This document shows, one piece after another, positions 12,371 through 41,174 of a DNA stretch of 41,174 nucleotides. A model generated the notes under the pieces. That model had not been told where the DNA came from and made no database searches. It saw only the letters and a program-made list of their open reading frames with translations. Position 1 is the first letter of the stretch; each line of letters opens with the position of its first letter. The position numbers and the translations under genes are program-made. The DNA comes from an uncultured Bacteroidales bacterium (lineage in GTDB: Bacteria; Bacteroidota; Bacteroidia; Bacteroidales; Paludibacteraceae). The stretch covers positions 1 through 41,174 of the forward strand of contig CAIYOZ010000102.1 in the NCBI GenBank assembly GCA_903927945.1, in the 5' to 3' direction.

Positions 12371-13423
12371 ATGAAACACACTTTAAAAAATTCATTCATC
12401 TTGCTGGTAATGTTCGGTTTAATTGCGTTGTCATTGACCTGTAAAGGGGAAAGTCCAGTGGCGACTCCGCCTGTAACTACCTTTGCAAAAGGCGCGGACA
12501 TCAGCTGGCTGCCTCAGATGGAAGCGAGCGGATACAAGTTTCTGAACGCTCAAGGCGTACAGGAGGATTGTTTTAAGATACTGAAAGATCATGGTATCAA
12601 CGCCATCCGGCTCAGGACCTGGGTAAATCCGTCGGACAGTCCCGGTAGCGGACATTGCAGCAATGAGGAAACGGTGGCTATGGCGCTCAGGGCACAAAAA
12701 TGGGGCATGCAGGTGATGATCGACTTTCATTACAGCGACTCCTGGGCCGATCCTTCCAAACAAGTGAAGCCCAAAGCATGGGAAGGACATGATTTCAAGC
12801 AATTGCTGAATGATGTATACAATTACACGCTGGAGGTGATGACAGCCCTGAAAACAGCAGGCGTCACCCCGGCATGGGTGCAGGTAGGGAATGAGACGCG
12901 TACGGGCATGATTTATCCCGAAGGAAACACCGACAACTGGGGGCAGCTGGCACAACTGATCAATAAAGGATACGATGCCATCAAAGCAGTGAGCCCGGAT
13001 ACGAAGGTAATCCTTCATGTCGACCAGGGAAATAACAAAGCCCTGTTTCGTGGGTGGTTCGATAATGCGCAAAAATACGATGCAAAATATGATGTGATCG
13101 GGATGTCGTATTACCCCTATTGGCTGGATGGCAATCCCGATTACACGCTATCGATTGAGGACCTGGGGAGCAACCTGACAGACATGGCGACGCGATACCA
13201 CAAGGAAGTCATGGTGGTGGAAGTGGGCGGCGAAGACTTTAAGATACAAAACACCTATGACATGCTGAAGGCAGTGCTGACGAAAGTACAAGCGGTGCCG
13301 AACGGGAAAGGATTGGGAGTATTCTATTGGGAACCTGAAGGTGCCAGAAGCTGGAGCCATTACGGATTGAGTGCGTGGGGAGACGACGGAAAGCCTACCA
13401 TGGCACTGGACGCTTTTAAGTAA
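12371..13423 (+). CDS. GH53 endo-beta-1,4-galactanase lipoprotein, copy 1
   Basis: A 350-residue enzyme predicted to cleave beta-1,4-galactan side chains of pectin (arabinogalactan type I). The signal peptide ends in lipobox LSLTC (Cys24), so it is membrane-anchored and likely surface-exposed or periplasmic. The (beta/alpha)8 barrel starts at FAKGADISWLPQME. The acid/base Glu175 is in WVQVGNE and the nucleophile Glu284 in VMVVEVG. Other family patterns are NAIRLRTWVNPSD and MIDFHYSDSWADP. The second copy starts 41 bases after its stop codon, so they form one transcript. No SusC/SusD transporter pair is next to them, unlike usual polysaccharide loci. Confidence 0.93.
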   Translation: MKHTLKNSFILLVMFGLIALSLTCKGESPVATPPVTTFAKGADISWLPQMEASGYKFLNAQGVQEDCFKILKDHGINAIRLRTWVNPSDSPGSGHCSNEETVAMALRAQKWGMQVMIDFHYSDSWADPSKQVKPKAWEGHDFKQLLNDVYNYTLEVMTALKTAGVTPAWVQVGNETRTGMIYPEGNTDNWGQLAQLINKGYDAIKAVSPDTKVILHVDQGNNKALFRGWFDNAQKYDAKYDVIGMSYYPYWLDGNPDYTLSIEDLGSNLTDMATRYHKEVMVVEVGGEDFKIQNTYDMLKAVLTKVQAVPNGKGLGVFYWEPEGARSWSHYGLSAWGDDGKPTMALDAFK

Positions 13424-13443
13424 GTGATTAGTGATAAGTGACA
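13421..13443 (+). repeat. GTGATTA word array from the GH53-1 stop codon
   Basis: The stop codon TAA runs directly into GTGATTAGTGATAAGTGA, a short array of GTGAT words that also supplies more stop codons. Confidence 0.6.
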
Positions 13444-13464
13444 GACTCATCAAAAACAACTTTT

Positions 13465-14526
13465 ATGAAATCAATCATTCTTAAGACAGCTTTTTTAGTC
13501 ATTGGATTTGCATGGATGATCATTCCAACGGGGTGCAAAGATAATAATCCGATAAAAAGTTCGCAATATACGCCTCCAACAGATACCACGAAGGCTGCTA
13601 TCTTTGCCAATGGTGCTGACGTGAGTTGGTTGACACAAATGGAGCACGATGGCAAGCTGTTTTACAATGCAGCGGGCACTCAAATGGAATGCATGGCTTT
13701 GTTGCAGAGCCTGGGGATGAACTCAATACGGCTCAGGGTATGGGTAAATCCTTCGGATGGGTGGTGCAACGCCCAGGATGTATTGACGAAAGCCTTGCGA
13801 GCCAAAAACCTGGGAATGCGCGTCATGATTGACTTCCATTACAGTGACAGCTGGGCAGACCCTGGAAAACAAACTAAGCCTGCAGCCTGGGTAAACCTAA
13901 GTTTCACGGATCTGGAAGCAGCACTCGCTAAACATACAACCGATGTGCTGAGTTTATTGAAAACGAATGGGATAACACCTGAATGGGTTCAGATAGGGAA
14001 TGAAACCGGGAATGGAATGTTGTGGGAAGATGGGAAAGCATCGACCAATATGGCCAACTATGCGGCCCTCAACAATACCGGATATTATGCGGTGAAGGCA
14101 GTATTTCCTACGGCGAAGGTGGTTGTACATGTACAAGACGGAAACGACAACAGCTTGTTCCGGTGGCTGTTCGATGGATTAAAGAACAACGGAGGCAAGT
14201 GGGATGTGATTGGCATGTCGCTTTATCCCGGTACATTGAATTGGTCGACTATGAATACGGATTGCCTGGCGAATATGAATGACATGGTGTCACGGTACGG
14301 AAAAGAAGTGATGATTTGCGAAACAGGCATGCCCTGGGATTCGTGGGACATATCGAAAAACTTTTTAACCGACCTGATAGCGAAAACCAAATTAGTGACC
14401 GATCATAAGGGAATCGGGCTTTTCTATTGGGAACCGGAATGCGAATCCCTGTGGAATAATTATACCAAGGGTGCTTTTGATAACTCGGGGAAACCTACCG
14501 TGGCGCTTGATGCGTTTAAAAATTAG
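13465..14526 (+). CDS. GH53 endo-beta-1,4-galactanase lipoprotein, copy 2
   Basis: A 353-residue paralogue of the preceding gene, started at the ATG at 13465 because that places a signal peptide with lipobox PTGC (Cys24) at the N-terminus. An upstream GTG at 13438 would disrupt it and lies in repeat sequence. The barrel begins at FANGADVSWLTQME, the acid/base Glu180 is in WVQIGNE and the nucleophile Glu286 in VMICETG. It keeps MIDFHYSDSWADP, and both copies end with PTMALDAFK or PTVALDAFK. The copies have clearly diverged, so the duplication is old and they may prefer different chain lengths or side chains. Confidence 0.93.
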   Translation: MKSIILKTAFLVIGFAWMIIPTGCKDNNPIKSSQYTPPTDTTKAAIFANGADVSWLTQMEHDGKLFYNAAGTQMECMALLQSLGMNSIRLRVWVNPSDGWCNAQDVLTKALRAKNLGMRVMIDFHYSDSWADPGKQTKPAAWVNLSFTDLEAALAKHTTDVLSLLKTNGITPEWVQIGNETGNGMLWEDGKASTNMANYAALNNTGYYAVKAVFPTAKVVVHVQDGNDNSLFRWLFDGLKNNGGKWDVIGMSLYPGTLNWSTMNTDCLANMNDMVSRYGKEVMICETGMPWDSWDISKNFLTDLIAKTKLVTDHKGIGLFYWEPECESLWNNYTKGAFDNSGKPTVALDAFKN

Positions 14527-18249: not shown

Positions 18250-18257
18250 TATATTTG
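18250..18257 (+). promoter_or_regulatory. Cytochrome operon -7 box (TATATTTG)
   Basis: TATATTTG matches TAnnTTTG and lies 42 bases before the cytochrome b start codon, suggesting that the three-gene cluster is transcribed separately from ccsBA. Confidence 0.55.
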
Positions 18258-18291: not shown

Positions 18292-19077
18292 ATGACTCGA
18301 TTTATTCATAGTTTATCATTAACACTGTATTCACTCATTGTTATTATATCGATCATTGTGCTGACGTATATTGGATTCTCCTATTATAACAAGCCAATTG
18401 AATTACGTTATTTTGATCCAAACTATGATTTATTAAAGCCAAGCGGAATCCTTGGACATGGACTGGGCGTTATAGGTTCATTCCTGATAGTGGTTGGTCT
18501 GTTTTCGTATATGATTCGAAAGAGGTTTAAAGTATTTGCACGCGTAGGAGTATTAAAATACTGGCTTGAATTTCATATTTTCCTTTGTACATTGGGGTCT
18601 GTGTTTGTACTATACCATACAACCTTTAAATTCGGAGGAATCGTATCTGTAGGGTTCTGGAGCCTGGTCATTGTGTGGATGAGCGGTGTGATTGGACGAT
18701 TTATTTATATACAGATTCCTCATACCATTCAAGGACGTGAGCTGAGCCTGCGGGAAGTACATAATTACAAGGCACAAATCGGCTTGGAATTAAGAGATAA
18801 CTATCAGGTTGAGATTACAGAGATTGAAGCGTCCAGGTATTCATCTCAAAAAATAAACCAATACGCTGAAAACAGAGATGCTGCCGATTTCAAGAAAATC
18901 AAACATTTGATTCATACTCAGAAGAAGATCAGCAAACGGATTGAACGATTGGATACGATGCAAAACATGTTTAAACACTGGCACGTTGCCCATTTGCCCT
19001 TTGCGCTTATCATGTTAGTAATAATGGTCATACATATAGCAGTGGTGCTCACGTTTGGCTACAAATGGATTTTCTAA
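18292..19077 (+). CDS. Predicted di-heme membrane cytochrome b
   Basis: A 261-residue integral membrane protein with about five helices (near 10-31, 53-75, 90-112, 117-141 and 232-255). His95 and His109 lie on the third helix, and His234 and His248 on the last. The two pairs each have a 14-residue spacing, the arrangement seen in four-helix di-heme b cytochromes. A hydrophilic loop of about 85 residues (143-229) separates helices four and five. I do not recognise a named family. Its stop codon is one base before the next gene, the Fe-S flavoprotein, so they are translationally coupled. The likely job is to pass electrons from that cytoplasmic flavoprotein to the periplasmic multiheme cytochrome, or in reverse. 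Confidence 0.65.
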   Translation: MTRFIHSLSLTLYSLIVIISIIVLTYIGFSYYNKPIELRYFDPNYDLLKPSGILGHGLGVIGSFLIVVGLFSYMIRKRFKVFARVGVLKYWLEFHIFLCTLGSVFVLYHTTFKFGGIVSVGFWSLVIVWMSGVIGRFIYIQIPHTIQGRELSLREVHNYKAQIGLELRDNYQVEITEIEASRYSSQKINQYAENRDAADFKKIKHLIHTQKKISKRIERLDTMQNMFKHWHVAHLPFALIMLVIMVIHIAVVLTFGYKWIF

Positions 19078-19078
19078 A

Positions 19079-20413
19079 ATGACAGATCAACTCATTGAAA
19101 TATCTATATATGGTTTTGCCTTCTTACTCATTTTGATTGTATTGATTGTATATATCAAAAAACAGAAAAGGGAATCGAAAGAGGTAGATGATAAAATAGA
19201 ACTGGCCAAGGAAGATGGCAAACATGAACCGGTATCCATATACCCGTTTGTCGATCCGGGCAGGTGTATAAAAAGCGGTGCATGCATTGAAGCATGTCCT
19301 GAAAAAGATGTATTGGGTATCCGAAATGGCAAGGCAACCCTGATCAATGCCTCACATTGTATTGGACATGGAGCATGTTTTCGGGCTTGTCCTACGGAAG
19401 CTATCTCCTTATGGATCGGTACCGAAAAAAGGGGGGTTGATTTGCCTGATGTAAGTCCTACCTTTGAAACCAATATACGGGGAATCTATGTAGCCGGTGA
19501 ATTAGGCGGTATGGGGCTGATAAAAAATGCAGTGGTTCAGGGTAAAGAAGCTGTAGATAACATTGCAAAAACCATAAAAAAAGATATAAAGGCAGAATAT
19601 GATTTAATAATAGTTGGAGCTGGACCGGCGGGTATCTCAGCTACATTATCAGCTAAAAAACACAATTTAAAGGTCTTGACCCTTGAGCAGGACACCTTGG
19701 GAGGTGCTATTTATACATTTCCCCGTTCTAAGATAGTCATGACAACTCCGGTGGATTTGCCCTTGTATGGCAGAGTGAAATTTCGTGAATCGTCAAAGAC
19801 AGAATTGCTTGAATTGTGGCATACTGTCTTAAACAAAAACAATATCAAAATAAAAGAAAATTCAAAAGTTGAGGCCATCATTCCTGAAGGCGACATTTTC
19901 AAAGTAGAGACTGTTGCTGGTGAGATATATACTACAAAAACTGTTCTTATTGCCGTTGGTCGCAGGGGAACGCCACGAAAGCTGAATGTGGAGGGAGAAA
20001 ATTCGGAAAAAGTAGCCTATAGATTGCTTGAACCGGAAGAAATAAAAGAAAAGAATATCCTGGTGGTTGGTGGTGGAGATTCTGCCATAGAGTCCGCATT
20101 ACTTTTAGCAGGACAGAATCATGTCACGCTATCTTATAGAAATAATGCATTTACCAGGATTAAAGCAAAAAATGCAGAAAAAATAAATGAAGCAATCAAA
20201 AGTGGATTGGTTGACGTAAAGTTCAATTCAAATGTATTATCAATAGAACCTGATTCAGTATCTTATAAAATAAATGATTCCAATGAGATCATGAAACTGA
20301 AAAATGATCTGGTTTATATATTTGCAGGCGGAGAACTTCCGACTCAGTTTCTAAAAAAGATTGGGATCGATGTCACCACAAAGTACGGTGAAAAGATCAT
20401 GAAACACAGATAG
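19079..20413 (+). CDS. Membrane-anchored Fe-S flavoprotein oxidoreductase
   Basis: A 444-residue protein started at the ATG at 19079, one base after the cytochrome b stop codon; this start gives an N-terminal membrane helix (about 9-26) followed by KKQKR, placing the rest in the cytoplasm. Residues 57-110 form a ferredoxin-like domain with Cys63, 69, 73 and Cys94, 100, 104. Each motif lacks the usual second Cys (Ser66 and His97 there). Residues 175-444 are thioredoxin-reductase-like with FAD motif GAGPAG (180-185) and NAD(P) motif GGGDSA (331-336), but no redox CxxC, so disulfide reduction is unlikely. A segment normally C-terminal in that fold (IRGIYVAGELGG, 133-144, through NAVVQGKEAV) lies before the FAD domain, suggesting circular permutation. 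Probably oxidises NAD(P)H and feeds cytochrome b. Confidence 0.75.
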   Translation: MTDQLIEISIYGFAFLLILIVLIVYIKKQKRESKEVDDKIELAKEDGKHEPVSIYPFVDPGRCIKSGACIEACPEKDVLGIRNGKATLINASHCIGHGACFRACPTEAISLWIGTEKRGVDLPDVSPTFETNIRGIYVAGELGGMGLIKNAVVQGKEAVDNIAKTIKKDIKAEYDLIIVGAGPAGISATLSAKKHNLKVLTLEQDTLGGAIYTFPRSKIVMTTPVDLPLYGRVKFRESSKTELLELWHTVLNKNNIKIKENSKVEAIIPEGDIFKVETVAGEIYTTKTVLIAVGRRGTPRKLNVEGENSEKVAYRLLEPEEIKEKNILVVGGGDSAIESALLLAGQNHVTLSYRNNAFTRIKAKNAEKINEAIKSGLVDVKFNSNVLSIEPDSVSYKINDSNEIMKLKNDLVYIFAGGELPTQFLKKIGIDVTTKYGEKIMKHR

Positions 20414-20463
20414 AAAAAACTGTCAATACCATACCCTAATTACAAAATTATATTAACGAATTA

Positions 20464-22065
20464 ATGCCAGAGATGAAATTAAAAGAATTACTACTTATTC
20501 TTGGATTATTCTTTTTGTGCACGTATCAGGTTACGGCTCAAATATCACCAGGTGATCTGAGTAATTCGCATGCCTATCTGGAAGGGGTAAGTAATTGCAC
20601 CAAGTGTCATGATGTGGGCAATAAAGTAACCAAAGAGAAATGCCTGGCCTGTCATCAGATCATTAAAACAAATATCCTGGCAAAAAAAGGCTACCATGCA
20701 TCTGCGGAAGTAACCGGGAAAGAATGTGTTGTATGCCATAATGAACACCATGGACGTACTTTTCAAATGATTCGTTTTGACAAGAAATCATTTAACCATA
20801 ATAAAACAGGTTTTGAATTAAAAGGTGTGCATGCCCGTAAGGAGTGTACTGCCTGCCACAAAGCGGATTTTATAAAAGATCCACGACTGAAAAAGAAAGC
20901 AACTACTTTTATGGGATTGAATCAGGCGTGTCTTACTTGTCACGAGGATTTTCATAAAGGCAGCATGTCCTCCAAATGTAATACATGCCATAACTTTGAA
21001 TCATTTAAAAAAGTAACAACGTTTGATCACAATACAACCAGATTTCCACTGTTGGGGAAACATAAAACAGTAACCTGTGAAAAATGTCATCCTACCGAAA
21101 TGGTTAATGGCAAGCCTGTACAAAAACTCAGAGGTATTCAATTCAACAATTGTACCGCTTGTCATAAAGATGTGCACGACAACAAATTTGGTCAGAATTG
21201 CAAGAAATGCCATAATGAAGAGTCATTTCATGTAGTAAAAGGAATGAAAACATTCGATCATGATAAGACTAATTTCAAACTTGTCGGGAAACATGCTTTG
21301 CTGGCCTGTAAATCGTGTCATAAAACATCATTGACAGCACCGATCAAACACGATCATTGTTCAAGCTGTCATGCTGATTATCATAACAAGGAGTTTGCTA
21401 AAAATGGCATATCACCGGACTGTAATCAATGCCATACAAATGATGGATTTACTCCAAGCCTGTATACTGTTGAAGATCATAATCGGACGAAATTTCCGCT
21501 TGAAGGTGCCCATCTGGCAACACCATGTATGGCATGCCATAAATTACAAGGCAGGTGGACTTTTGCAAATATGGGGGAAAATTGCAATGATTGTCATCAA
21601 AATATACATAGAGGATTTATTGGGGATAAGTTTATGGCGAATAACAATTGCAAAGCATGCCACACTGTAACCGGCTGGAAGAATGTCACTTTTGATCATA
21701 ATAAAACTAATTTCAAGCTTGATGGTGCACATGCCAAACTACAGTGCAGTGACTGCCATTTTAAGAAAAACGATAAGGGAGTTAGAGTACAACAGTTTAA
21801 GGGGCTATTGACTGATTGCGCAAGCTGTCATAAAAATAACCATAGGGGACAATTTGAAGTAAATGGTAAGACTGATTGCTTAAGATGCCACAGTACTGAA
21901 AGTTGGGAGAAGACAAAGTTTGATCACAACACCTCCAGATTTAAGCTGGAAGGGGCACATTTACAGGTGAGTTGCAAGGAATGCCATAAGGAAGTTACTG
22001 ACGAAAAAGGTAAATATATTCAGTATAAATTCAAAAGTATTGAATGCGTGGTATGCCATTCATAA
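20464..22065 (+). CDS. Periplasmic 20-heme cytochrome c with internal repeats
   Basis: A 533-residue secreted protein with a signal peptide ending at VTAQ (about residue 26); an ATG three codons later is an alternative start. I count 20 CxxCH motifs, the first at Cys45 and the last at Cys529. Six repeats start near residues 110, 187, 264, 337, 410 and 486, spaced 73-77 residues. Each carries FDHN-T-F-L-G-H followed about ten residues later by CxxCH, and most enclose three hemes. The layout suggests an extended heme wire related to cytochrome c3/c7-type proteins. It is the third gene of the cluster, 50 bases after the flavoprotein. There is no lipobox or membrane anchor, so it is probably soluble or docked to a partner. 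Confidence 0.9.
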   Translation: MPEMKLKELLLILGLFFLCTYQVTAQISPGDLSNSHAYLEGVSNCTKCHDVGNKVTKEKCLACHQIIKTNILAKKGYHASAEVTGKECVVCHNEHHGRTFQMIRFDKKSFNHNKTGFELKGVHARKECTACHKADFIKDPRLKKKATTFMGLNQACLTCHEDFHKGSMSSKCNTCHNFESFKKVTTFDHNTTRFPLLGKHKTVTCEKCHPTEMVNGKPVQKLRGIQFNNCTACHKDVHDNKFGQNCKKCHNEESFHVVKGMKTFDHDKTNFKLVGKHALLACKSCHKTSLTAPIKHDHCSSCHADYHNKEFAKNGISPDCNQCHTNDGFTPSLYTVEDHNRTKFPLEGAHLATPCMACHKLQGRWTFANMGENCNDCHQNIHRGFIGDKFMANNNCKACHTVTGWKNVTFDHNKTNFKLDGAHAKLQCSDCHFKKNDKGVRVQQFKGLLTDCASCHKNNHRGQFEVNGKTDCLRCHSTESWEKTKFDHNTSRFKLEGAHLQVSCKECHKEVTDEKGKYIQYKFKSIECVVCHS

Positions 22066-39967: not shown

Positions 39968-41174
39968 TTATGGTCTGTTGATAATATTTGTACTGGTTAG
40001 AACCACTGAGCCGTTACGGGCAAGCATTCTGCCTGTAGCCACTGCATATGAATCCATTGTAATGGATTGCAATGCTAATATGCTGCCATAGAAAGTGGTA
40101 TAAGTTCCGATGGTAGCTGAGCTACCGGTTTGCCAGAAGATGTTCTTTGCCTGGGCTCCACCAATTAATTTGATATTACCTCCGGTTGTGGTGGTAAGTG
40201 TGGAAGCTACCTGGAAGATCCAGTAAGCATTTGGATTACCCTGTGCATCGAGGGTCAGATCACTTCCATCAACCGATAATGTTGAAGTCGATTTATAGAT
40301 ACCCGGTGCGAGTGTCTTGCCACCTTGATTTCCAGATACAGTCTGAGGGGCCATGGCAATAGATGATTCTGCAAACAGATAAGCTGCCACTAAGTCCAGT
40401 TTGGCTTGTTTAAGCATGGCTGCTGTAGCGGCACCATCGTCGGCTGCATACATTCCACCATTCACAATAATTGCAGGTGGGAAACCGGTAATAGAAGAAC
40501 GGGCTCCGGGATAAATACCGACATCCATGTTGTTTATCACACTGGCACCTGCATTGTTGCTCACTCCGACTCCTGAAATGATGGCAAAATGTGCTACTGA
40601 TCCAAGGTTCACGAATGAAGGAGATCCTGCTATGAGTGGTGTACTAAACATCCAGGTAAAATCATTGGACAATGGAGTATTCGCGATGTTTTTTGCACCG
40701 GTTGTAATGGTAGCCGTATAGGTCTTACCGGCAACTAACGGGCTGTTTGGTTTGAAACTTGCTGTTGATCCGCTATAAGTTACCACCCCGGCAATAGGAT
40801 TAACTCCTTGTGTTAAGGTAAAAGTTGAACCGGTGATTGTTAGAGGGTTCATAACAATACTGAAGGTTGCAGATATCGTCTTATTCAAATCGACATTTCC
40901 ATCAAAATTTACCGGGTCCGTAAAAATCACCATGGGTACAATGACCGAAGAAGTCTTAAAATTCCAGGTAGTGTCTTTAGCTAATGTTGAACCATCTAAA
41001 TTCTTGATTCCGGTGGTTAAGGTTGCTGTGTAGGTGGTATTGATCGACAAATCATTGTCGGGTGTAAAAGATGCGGTTGTTCCACTGTATGATACGGCTC
41101 CTGATACATTTGTAACCCCTTGTTTCAAGGTAAAGGATGTCCCGGTAACGGTTGAAGGGTCCAGTAACATGTTA
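39968..41174 (-). CDS. Ice-binding-like (DUF3494) protein with Big_5 domains, 5' end missing
   Basis: The frame is open to the right edge, so the start and signal peptide lie outside; about 402 residues are seen. Residues from about 1 to 170 hold two bacterial Ig-like Big_5 repeats (second one from IFTDPVNFDGNVDLNKTIS, with ATFSIVMNPLTITGSTF). The C-terminal 220 residues are a DUF3494 domain: FVNLGSVAHFAIISGVGVSN, ALQSITMDSYAVATGRMLAR. DUF3494 proteins include ice-binding antifreeze proteins and ice adhesins; many homologues in non-polar bacteria have not been tested for ice binding. The downstream OmpA-family gene follows after 64 bases. Confidence 0.9.
   Translation of the reverse strand, partial: NMLLDPSTVTGTSFTLKQGVTNVSGAVSYSGTTASFTPDNDLSINTTYTATLTTGIKNLDGSTLAKDTTWNFKTSSVIVPMVIFTDPVNFDGNVDLNKTISATFSIVMNPLTITGSTFTLTQGVNPIAGVVTYSGSTASFKPNSPLVAGKTYTATITTGAKNIANTPLSNDFTWMFSTPLIAGSPSFVNLGSVAHFAIISGVGVSNNAGASVINNMDVGIYPGARSSITGFPPAIIVNGGMYAADDGAATAAMLKQAKLDLVAAYLFAESSIAMAPQTVSGNQGGKTLAPGIYKSTSTLSVDGSDLTLDAQGNPNAYWIFQVASTLTTTTGGNIKLIGGAQAKNIFWQTGSSATIGTYTTFYGSILALQSITMDSYAVATGRMLARNGSVVLTSTNIINRP

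Follow-up and report, generated by a model that had tools for sequence, protein, structure and literature searches.

The window examined here is the whole of contig CAIYOZ010000102.1 (41,174 nucleotides; contig C102) in the 4.47 Mb draft genome (GenBank assembly GCA_903927945.1; 97.66% complete, 4.63% contaminated) of an uncultured Bacteroidales bacterium belonging to the Paludibacteraceae. Three genes in the window encode a cytochrome b, a membrane-anchored iron-sulfur (Fe-S) flavoprotein and a 20-heme cytochrome c, and this operon is probably one half, covering the inner membrane and the periplasm, of a system for extracellular electron transfer that resembles the porin-cytochrome conduits of the PCC3 class (He et al. 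2017, PMC5566968). The assignment is based on gene content, synteny, motifs, helix and barrel predictions, and heme-motif counts. The system is called PCC3-like, as the comparison was made with the published description of PCC3.

A scan identified 544 relatives of the cytochrome b, and the best 80 of these 544 were treated as named loci. The nearest named relatives carry the label Paludibacter sp., and 35 of the 59 other genomes searched as relatives belong to the same genus as the host. In a tree of the cytochromes b, the window copy grouped with those of L045 and L062 (three rows, support 100/99). In relatives, the full operon was found to encode, besides the cytochrome b and the flavoprotein, two multiheme cytochromes, the first with 20 or 23 hemes, and, as the product of the last gene, an unclassified ~535-amino-acid (aa) protein. 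Counting only loci with enough DNA, a flavoprotein gene was located within 2.5 kb of the cytochrome b gene in 75 of 76 named loci, and the sole miss, L084, does show one on inspection. The first large cytochrome was present in 61 of 63 (some were cut by a contig end), the second in 53 of 56, and the barrel gene in 41 of 48. Of the seven loci lacking the latter, L045 and L054 have other genes following, L103 has the barrel gene upstream, and L075, L077, L113 and L120 end within or soon after a multiheme gene. The initial annotation had regarded separation of the three window families in other genomes as the finding that would undermine a shared system; they were found together, and no such separation occurred.

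The same gene set was recovered in a draw of 395 genomes from across the Bacteroidota, 75 of which had a cytochrome b match, strong in 40 (host genome included). Among 38 loci sampled from this draw, the first cytochrome was present in 35, the second in 31 of 33 and the barrel gene in 29 of 31. One locus, L195, was lost as its cytochrome b was missed by the open reading frame (ORF) picker, and in L176 the anchor was a second, weak cytochrome b. Gene order varies, as the flavoprotein gene adjoins the cytochrome b gene in 19 of the 38 loci and lies further downstream in 15 more, in most of them after the barrel gene; L176 also has one. The barrel protein was matched in 36 of the 395 genomes (again counting the host), and 34 of these also hold a strong cytochrome b match (Fisher p about 1e-40, uncorrected for kinship and with 354 entered in place of 353 in one cell of the table; the 35 genomes with weak cytochrome b matches were left out of this count). 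The two remaining barrel matches, in G275 and G340, are marginal (E above 1e-4). Conversely, six genomes have a strong cytochrome b match and no barrel match; four of them (G278, G314, G349 and G399) show a weaker local match beside the operon, the G420 operon lies close to where its contig stops, and in G439 a 605-aa gene is left unassigned.

Many of the weak cytochrome b matches are proteins of ~190-220 aa, some of them encoded beside genes with 7 to 14 heme motifs. Examples of 186-193 aa adjoin cytochromes with 7 to 14 motifs in L204, L205, L206, L208 and L210, which represent other lineages of the phylum, and no barrel or flavoprotein was flagged among the genes shown for these loci.

Additional genes were observed within or next to the operon in some relatives. 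A gene for a BspA-type leucine-rich repeat protein (L027, 4923-6389, minus strand) separates the 20-heme gene from the following cytochrome gene, and members of the same cluster occur in L030, L032, L037, L046, L057, L061 and L063. In L164, L165, L168, L171, L188 and L191, the gene right behind that of the cytochrome b encodes a TPR-like protein of ~200 aa that has a hydrophobic stretch at its N-terminus; only the L164 copy was scanned, and it matched TPR families, with TPR_CcmH_CycH below its cut-off. A gene of ~200-aa size occupies the same place in L169, L170 and L183. The complete set is also carried by Emticicia oligotrophica plasmid pEMTOL02 (L215; record coordinates 78197-90781), which holds ccsA and the genes for the cytochrome b, the flavoprotein, a 23-heme cytochrome, a 40-heme cytochrome and the barrel; neighbouring genes encode a sigma factor, a Rieske protein and a DUF5777 barrel. 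This suggests that the set can travel.

The ~535-aa protein had no Pfam or NCBIfam family above cut-off in the two copies scanned. An AlphaFold2 model of the L047 copy, built with 40 sequences (pLDDT 81.9), includes a small N-terminal beta domain followed, after residue 130, by 22 strands, as counted manually from the listed elements. Using Foldseek, this model was matched to ushers (FimD), MOMP, AlgE and porins (best E 6e-10), and the protein is, on this model, an outer-membrane barrel.

In the window genome, a homologue of the barrel protein (547 aa, E 9e-216) is encoded on a different contig, C380, adjoining a second cytochrome of 319 aa with 12 heme motifs (11 CXXCH and one CX4CH). In L028, L047, L051 and L059, the corresponding pair is located between the 20-heme gene and uvrB, and it is therefore missing from that position both in the window genome and in the close relative L045, in each of which uvrB directly follows the 20-heme gene. 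The initial annotation had noted that no terminal reductase lies beside the operon; this is true in the window, but a second cytochrome and a barrel are encoded on C380 and beside the operon in most relatives, so that the route most probably extends past the outer membrane.

Several observations weigh against a complete conduit of this kind. The two halves are unlinked in the window genome, and the second cytochrome there is small. Within the group, the C380 barrel and cytochrome reach no more than 57% and 60% identity with the copies of any other genome. Against L025 the values are only 47% and 48%, despite 76% identity between the 20-heme cytochromes of L025 and the window; hence C380 may not have come from the host, or its gene pair may have had a separate evolutionary past, a doubt that slightly weakens the conduit reading. 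The tetranucleotide correlation between C380 and the window is 0.938, compared with 0.968-0.985 between pieces of the window and 0.961 for L025. No flavoprotein gene was found nearby in three of the 38 phylum-sample loci (L165, L180 and L188), and neither a lipobox nor a type IX-like end was seen by eye in the second cytochromes. The hosts also include aerobes (Emticicia, Saprospiraceae, Flavobacteriaceae), in which the electrons may flow in either direction. Finally, the accessible text of He et al. names no flavoprotein as a part of PCC3 (PMC5566968).

The separation of the two halves, together with the position of uvrB in L045, would also fit a system confined to the periplasm, which stores electrons or reduces soluble or periplasmic substrates, the pairing with a barrel elsewhere being secondary. 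Related cytochromes b whose gene neighbours include a 7-heme cytochrome but no annotated barrel (see below) point the same way. However, barrel and second cytochrome genes are present in the draft genome, and the cytochrome b and the barrel co-occur almost completely across the phylum draw, making a purely periplasmic role improbable.

The cytochrome b had been described in the initial annotation as a di-heme membrane protein, and this agrees with an AlphaFold2 model with five long helices (mean pLDDT 81.5) and with conserved histidine pairs. The motif WX3HX13H occurs on both transmembrane (TM) helices TM3 (W91, H95, H109) and TM5 (W230, H234, H248), SGXXG (S131 to G135) lies inside the TM4 helix (120-141), and residues 142-229 form a long loop. 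In an alignment of 15 sequences, H56, H95, H109, H231, H234 and H248 are invariant; in one of 65 sequences the last five remain so and H56 is nearly invariant. Both WX3HX13H motifs were found in 93 of 95 relatives in set 1 and in 31 of 38 phylum-sample proteins, two HX13H motifs in 37 of the latter 38, and SGXXG in all members of both sets (95 of 95 and 38 of 38); these counts include both the G-numbered and the named copies of some genomes. The relatives are mostly 255-340 aa long. Loop 2-3 contains five basic and no acidic residues and loop 4-5 contains 16 basic and 12 acidic ones, which places the former and, less clearly, the latter on the cytoplasmic side. From the motif spacing and the direction of the helices, H95/H234 would hold a heme near the cytoplasm and H109/H248 one near the periplasm. 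No Pfam or NCBIfam family was matched above cut-off, and a Foldseek search of the PDB with the model gave no match at E <= 0.001. Cytochrome b561 and NarI were considered as structural relatives and rejected, as their Foldseek rows (E 2 to 3.3) are not evidence.

The flavoprotein has a single N-terminal hydrophobic helix, a dicluster Fe-S region and a Pyr_redox_3 match (E 2e-43). Two acidic residues precede the helix and KKQKR directly follows it, a charge pattern that places the body of the protein in the cytoplasm, in agreement with the cytoplasm-facing Fe-S flavoprotein proposed initially. The window gene encodes two ferredoxin motifs at 19265-19400, in which the second Cys is replaced by Ser in motif I and by His97 in motif II. 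The motif II position is His in 128 of 130 copies, the pattern not being found in the other two, and the motif I position is Ser in 81, Thr in 32, Cys in 14 and Ala in one. These replacements suggest a His-ligated [4Fe-4S] or a [3Fe-4S] cluster. The FAD and NAD(P) domains are YpdA/thioredoxin-reductase-like, and in the NAD(P) domain Y353-R354-x3-F358-x-R360, which would suit NADPH, is kept in at least 95% of 128 rows. Among solved structures, chains of thioredoxin reductase and YpdA/Bdr are the closest. However, the YpdA/Bdr model TIGR04018 was not passed (161.2 bits against a cut-off of 339.9), and no CXXC pair was seen by eye outside the Fe-S motifs. Judged by sequence, the FAD/NAD(P) part is related to YpdA/Bdr, and the Fe-S and TM parts are extra.

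These solved relatives leave some room for a conduit in which the cytochrome b oxidises menaquinol and the flavoprotein is otherwise used, for example in regulation or thiol reduction. Such a conduit would differ from the one preferred here in its electron donor only, and a quinone-active cytochrome b has been proposed for PCC3 (PMC5566968). It is considered rather unlikely, as the flavoprotein is membrane-anchored, carries Fe-S motifs and is encoded in the operon in almost all loci examined.

The 20-heme protein contains 44 His residues, 20 of them in CXXCH motifs, and 2000 shuffles of its letters gave a mean of 0.26 and a maximum of three such motifs; together with a signal-peptide-like start, this upholds its initial description as a secreted 20-heme cytochrome. 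The same start suggests a periplasmic location. The motif spacing repeats every three hemes over most of the length (~75 aa per repeat), and no DNA tandem repeats were detected in the window gene. Heme motifs were then counted in the first and second cytochromes of the relatives, excluding truncated copies at contig ends, duplicates with the same sequence, loci L025-L044 (in part the same as named loci) and 16 proteins whose N-terminus matched neither class. All 94 complete first cytochromes have either 20 (78 proteins) or 23 (16 proteins) CXXCH motifs; as the class was restricted to 18-24 motifs, this means that only 20 and 23 occur within that range. First-position cytochromes among the 16 excluded proteins include those of L102 (17 motifs, ending at a contig end), L168 (14 motifs, gene split by a stop), L170 and L177 (picked with 19, to which an upstream open frame adds one, giving 20), L183, L184 and L189 (20 each) and L084 (23). 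The second cytochrome of L164, with 43 motifs, was also among them.

The second cytochromes are far more variable, with 10 to 64 motifs. A test of their number modulo three was applied to the 68 of 91 complete proteins with at least 14 motifs (range 15 to 64), and 60 of the 68 leave a remainder of one (binomial p 7e-21, uncorrected for kinship). When CX3CH and CX4CH were also counted, this rose to 67 of 68, with L182 (15 motifs) as the only one that does not fit. Of the 23 smaller proteins, 14 (10 or 13 motifs) fit and nine (11 or 12 motifs) do not, or 15 and eight when the CX3-4CH motifs are included. Length increases by 24.5 residues per heme, and the largest protein, encoded in L199, has 64 motifs in 1661 aa with a repeated spacing of 34-22-21. 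The DNA tandem copies in L199 match at only 72-76%, which speaks against a pure assembly artefact in that locus, and the single-contig genomes G183, G193, G295 and G361 obey the rule with 43, 22, 28 and 37 motifs, respectively.

Close relatives can differ by whole triheme units in the second cytochrome. L070 and L078, in which the cytochromes b are 95.5% identical, have 34 and 49 motifs, and the counts are 19 and 16 in L060 and L083 (92% identical) and 31 and 25 in L048 and L049 (87%). Other pairs have equal counts: L076 and L085 (93%) both have 37 motifs, as do L053 and L056 (84%). Variable heme numbers have been reported in homologous large cytochromes of Burkholderiales and Chloroflexi (PMC7399161) and of Gallionellaceae (PMC10734462).

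From these features we infer an electron path, an outward direction, an NAD(P)H donor, a second cytochrome in the barrel and an extracellular acceptor. Electrons from NAD(P)H or reduced ferredoxin in the cytoplasm would enter the FAD and Fe-S clusters of the anchored flavoprotein and pass to the cytoplasmic-side and then the periplasmic-side heme of the cytochrome b. The 20-heme cytochrome, with its c-hemes attached by CcsBA, would act as a wire of fixed length bridging the periplasm and deliver them to the second cytochrome, held in or passing through the 22-strand barrel, and so to an acceptor outside. In the window genome, the C380 pair would be the candidate for the last two components. 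The route from NAD(P)H to the periplasm or beyond that was proposed initially is backed, in its transmembrane part, by topology, motifs and co-occurrence, and NAD(P)H remains the presumed donor. A likely use in a presumably fermenting relative of Paludibacter would be the disposal of excess reductant, which fits with the outward pull that the membrane potential would exert.

The same conduit could in principle run inward, with Fe(II), a partner cell or some other external source supplying electrons that reach the quinone pool or NAD(P)+ by way of the cytochrome b and the flavoprotein. PCC3 has been found in Fe(II) oxidisers and modelled in this direction (PMC5566968). An inward flow to NAD(P)+ would, however, run against the membrane potential. 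A complete set is present on a plasmid of the aerobe E. oligotrophica, but cultured Paludibacter are anaerobic fermenters, and an NrfA-type nitrite reductase was sought in the host genome and not found (oxidases were outside that search). An inward direction is considered unlikely.

It is conceivable, at somewhat less than even chances, that a machine widespread in the Bacteroidota exports electrons from NAD(P)H while bypassing quinones, spans the periplasm with a fixed 20/23-heme ruler, carries a surface wire that changes rapidly in length as triheme units are gained and lost (16-64 hemes), and provides fermenters with a respiratory outlet to solids or partner cells. The literature search found few routes of extracellular electron transfer for this phylum, though members have been reported on anodes (PMC8258643, PMC7399161). 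The five-gene marker set, with the barrel and the cytochrome b as specific probes, would allow this capacity to be mapped and put to the test. A first cytochrome held at 20 or 23 hemes beside a second stepping by three raises the testable idea of a fixed gap versus a variable reach, and conservation of the flavoprotein suggests that electrons are donated from the cytoplasm in a conduit class for which the inner-membrane chemistry has so far only been proposed.

The features of the window are listed below. The three ORFs are packed as an operon, as originally proposed, with gaps of 1 nt between the cytochrome b and flavoprotein genes and 50 nt between the flavoprotein and 20-heme genes. The gene upstream was correctly recognised as encoding the heme-attachment enzyme. 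Where the upstream DNA sufficed, a ccsBA gene lay within 5 kb upstream in only 14 of 62 named loci, and in the phylum sample in none of 35, indicating that this location is a trait of some lineages and not of the system. The proposal that the operon has its own -7 box could not be upheld: TATATTTG is present, but the window contains 55 occurrences of TANNTTTG where 46 would be expected, 11 of 100 shuffles also reach 55, and a match at near-chance frequency does not point to a promoter. Upstream of ccsBA lie two glycoside hydrolase family 53 genes in tandem (12371-14526; the gene cluster has 17 members in 10 loci), and the end of the window (39971-41170) encodes an Ice-binding-like domain (PF11999) and bacterial Ig-like domains.

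Table. Operon genes and associated features in the window
Feature	Coordinates	Strand	Basis
ccsBA, System II cytochrome c heme-attachment protein, 1117 aa	14742..18095	+	Pfam ResB and Cytochrom_C_asm
Bacteroidota -7-like match TATATTTG upstream of the cytochrome b gene	18250..18257	+	Sequence match, chance-level frequency
Cytochrome b, 261 aa, five predicted TM helices	18292..19077	+	Motifs, alignments, AlphaFold2
Membrane-anchored Fe-S/FAD flavoprotein, 444 aa	19079..20413	+	Pyr_redox_3 and ferredoxin families, N-terminal TM helix
Secreted 20-heme c-type cytochrome, 533 aa	20464..22065	+	20 CXXCH motifs, signal-peptide-like start

Comparison with other known systems revealed only partial likeness. 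MtrCAB and MtoAB similarly combine a porin and multiheme cytochromes across the outer membrane. However, the 20-heme protein has 20 motifs and not 10 and fails the DmsE-family decaheme model TIGR03508 (38.6 bits against a cut-off of 192.2), and the two scanned barrels have no Pfam family above cut-off. For the Ext selenite/tellurite system, the ExtN model was not matched by the 20-heme protein (42 bits against 200), nor the ExtJ model by the L065 barrel protein (18.8 against 52.5). The literature search, from which most subscription papers and all preprints were beyond reach, recognised no Bacteroidota operon of this make-up. In the Bacteroidetes_1 metagenome-assembled genome, enriched 39-fold on an anode, a cluster described as probably uncharacterised until then likewise encodes multiheme cytochromes together with a beta-barrel protein (PMC8258643). 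By its description, that cluster differs in having six cytochrome genes and one barrel gene in seven, and its accessible account mentions no flavoprotein.

Related cytochromes b also occur in shorter gene sets. In the triads on Alteromonas, Legionella fallonii and Spirosoma plasmids (L216, L218 and L219), the cytochrome b is 22-27% identical, with a flavoprotein gene upstream and downstream a gene for a 7-heme cytochrome that has the PG-x-L start of the 20-heme protein. They differ in having only seven motifs, an FNR/2Fe-2S flavoprotein (L216, where scanned) and no barrel gene annotated nearby (the hypothetical genes there are unscanned). On Sphingobium plasmid pTomTYG65a (L220; record coordinates 952758-957951), a cNMP-binding/FAD/4Fe-4S gene, a cytochrome b gene and a gene for a 10-motif cytochrome with an FHA-like domain lie in a row, as a redox cluster of an unfamiliar kind. 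Outside the Bacteroidota, related cytochromes b are encoded between flavoprotein genes and genes for cytochromes c with seven or 10 motifs, which suggests a general flavoprotein-cytochrome b-multiheme module that here would have become part of an outer-membrane conduit.

The closest likeness is to PCC3, which comprises a porin together with extracellular and periplasmic cytochromes with very many hemes, and for which the published clusters are from Alpha-, Beta- and Gammaproteobacteria (PMC5566968). The PCC3 inner-membrane protein (~300 aa) has five helices with SGXXG on TM4 and WX3HX13H on TM3 and TM5 (PMC5566968), and the window cytochrome b, which is of similar size, carries the whole of this signature, shared by PCC3 and PCC4; subgroup II of PCC4 includes an Fe-S protein (PMC5566968). 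The periplasmic cytochrome has a published median of 21 hemes, with 21, 24 and 27 in Gallionellaceae (PMC10734462), compared with 20 in the window, and the variable second cytochrome a published median of 34, compared with 31 here for those with at least 14 motifs. An outer-membrane barrel and ~26 residues per heme are further points of likeness, though in the window genome the barrel homologue and second cytochrome lie outside the window cluster. The differences are the Bacteroidota host, the conserved flavoprotein, a barrel with 22 predicted strands as opposed to up to 42 reported, and a large second cytochrome that steps by three, in contrast to the 10-18, 26, 28, 29, 33 and 35 hemes in Gallionellaceae (PMC10734462). 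When plasmids were searched with the cytochrome b, 20-heme and barrel proteins, no PCC3-type cluster outside the Bacteroidota appeared among the matches listed. The initial annotation did not recognise the combination as a named complex; a cytochrome b with large multiheme cytochromes and a porin does correspond to the PCC3 class, but the flavoprotein is indeed unnamed in the accessible description of that class. The uncharacterised PCC3 conduit class and variable heme numbers in large cytochromes were already known, and new here are the constancy of the first cytochrome at 20 or 23 hemes, the three-heme steps of the second, and a conserved flavoprotein in a PCC3-like conduit.

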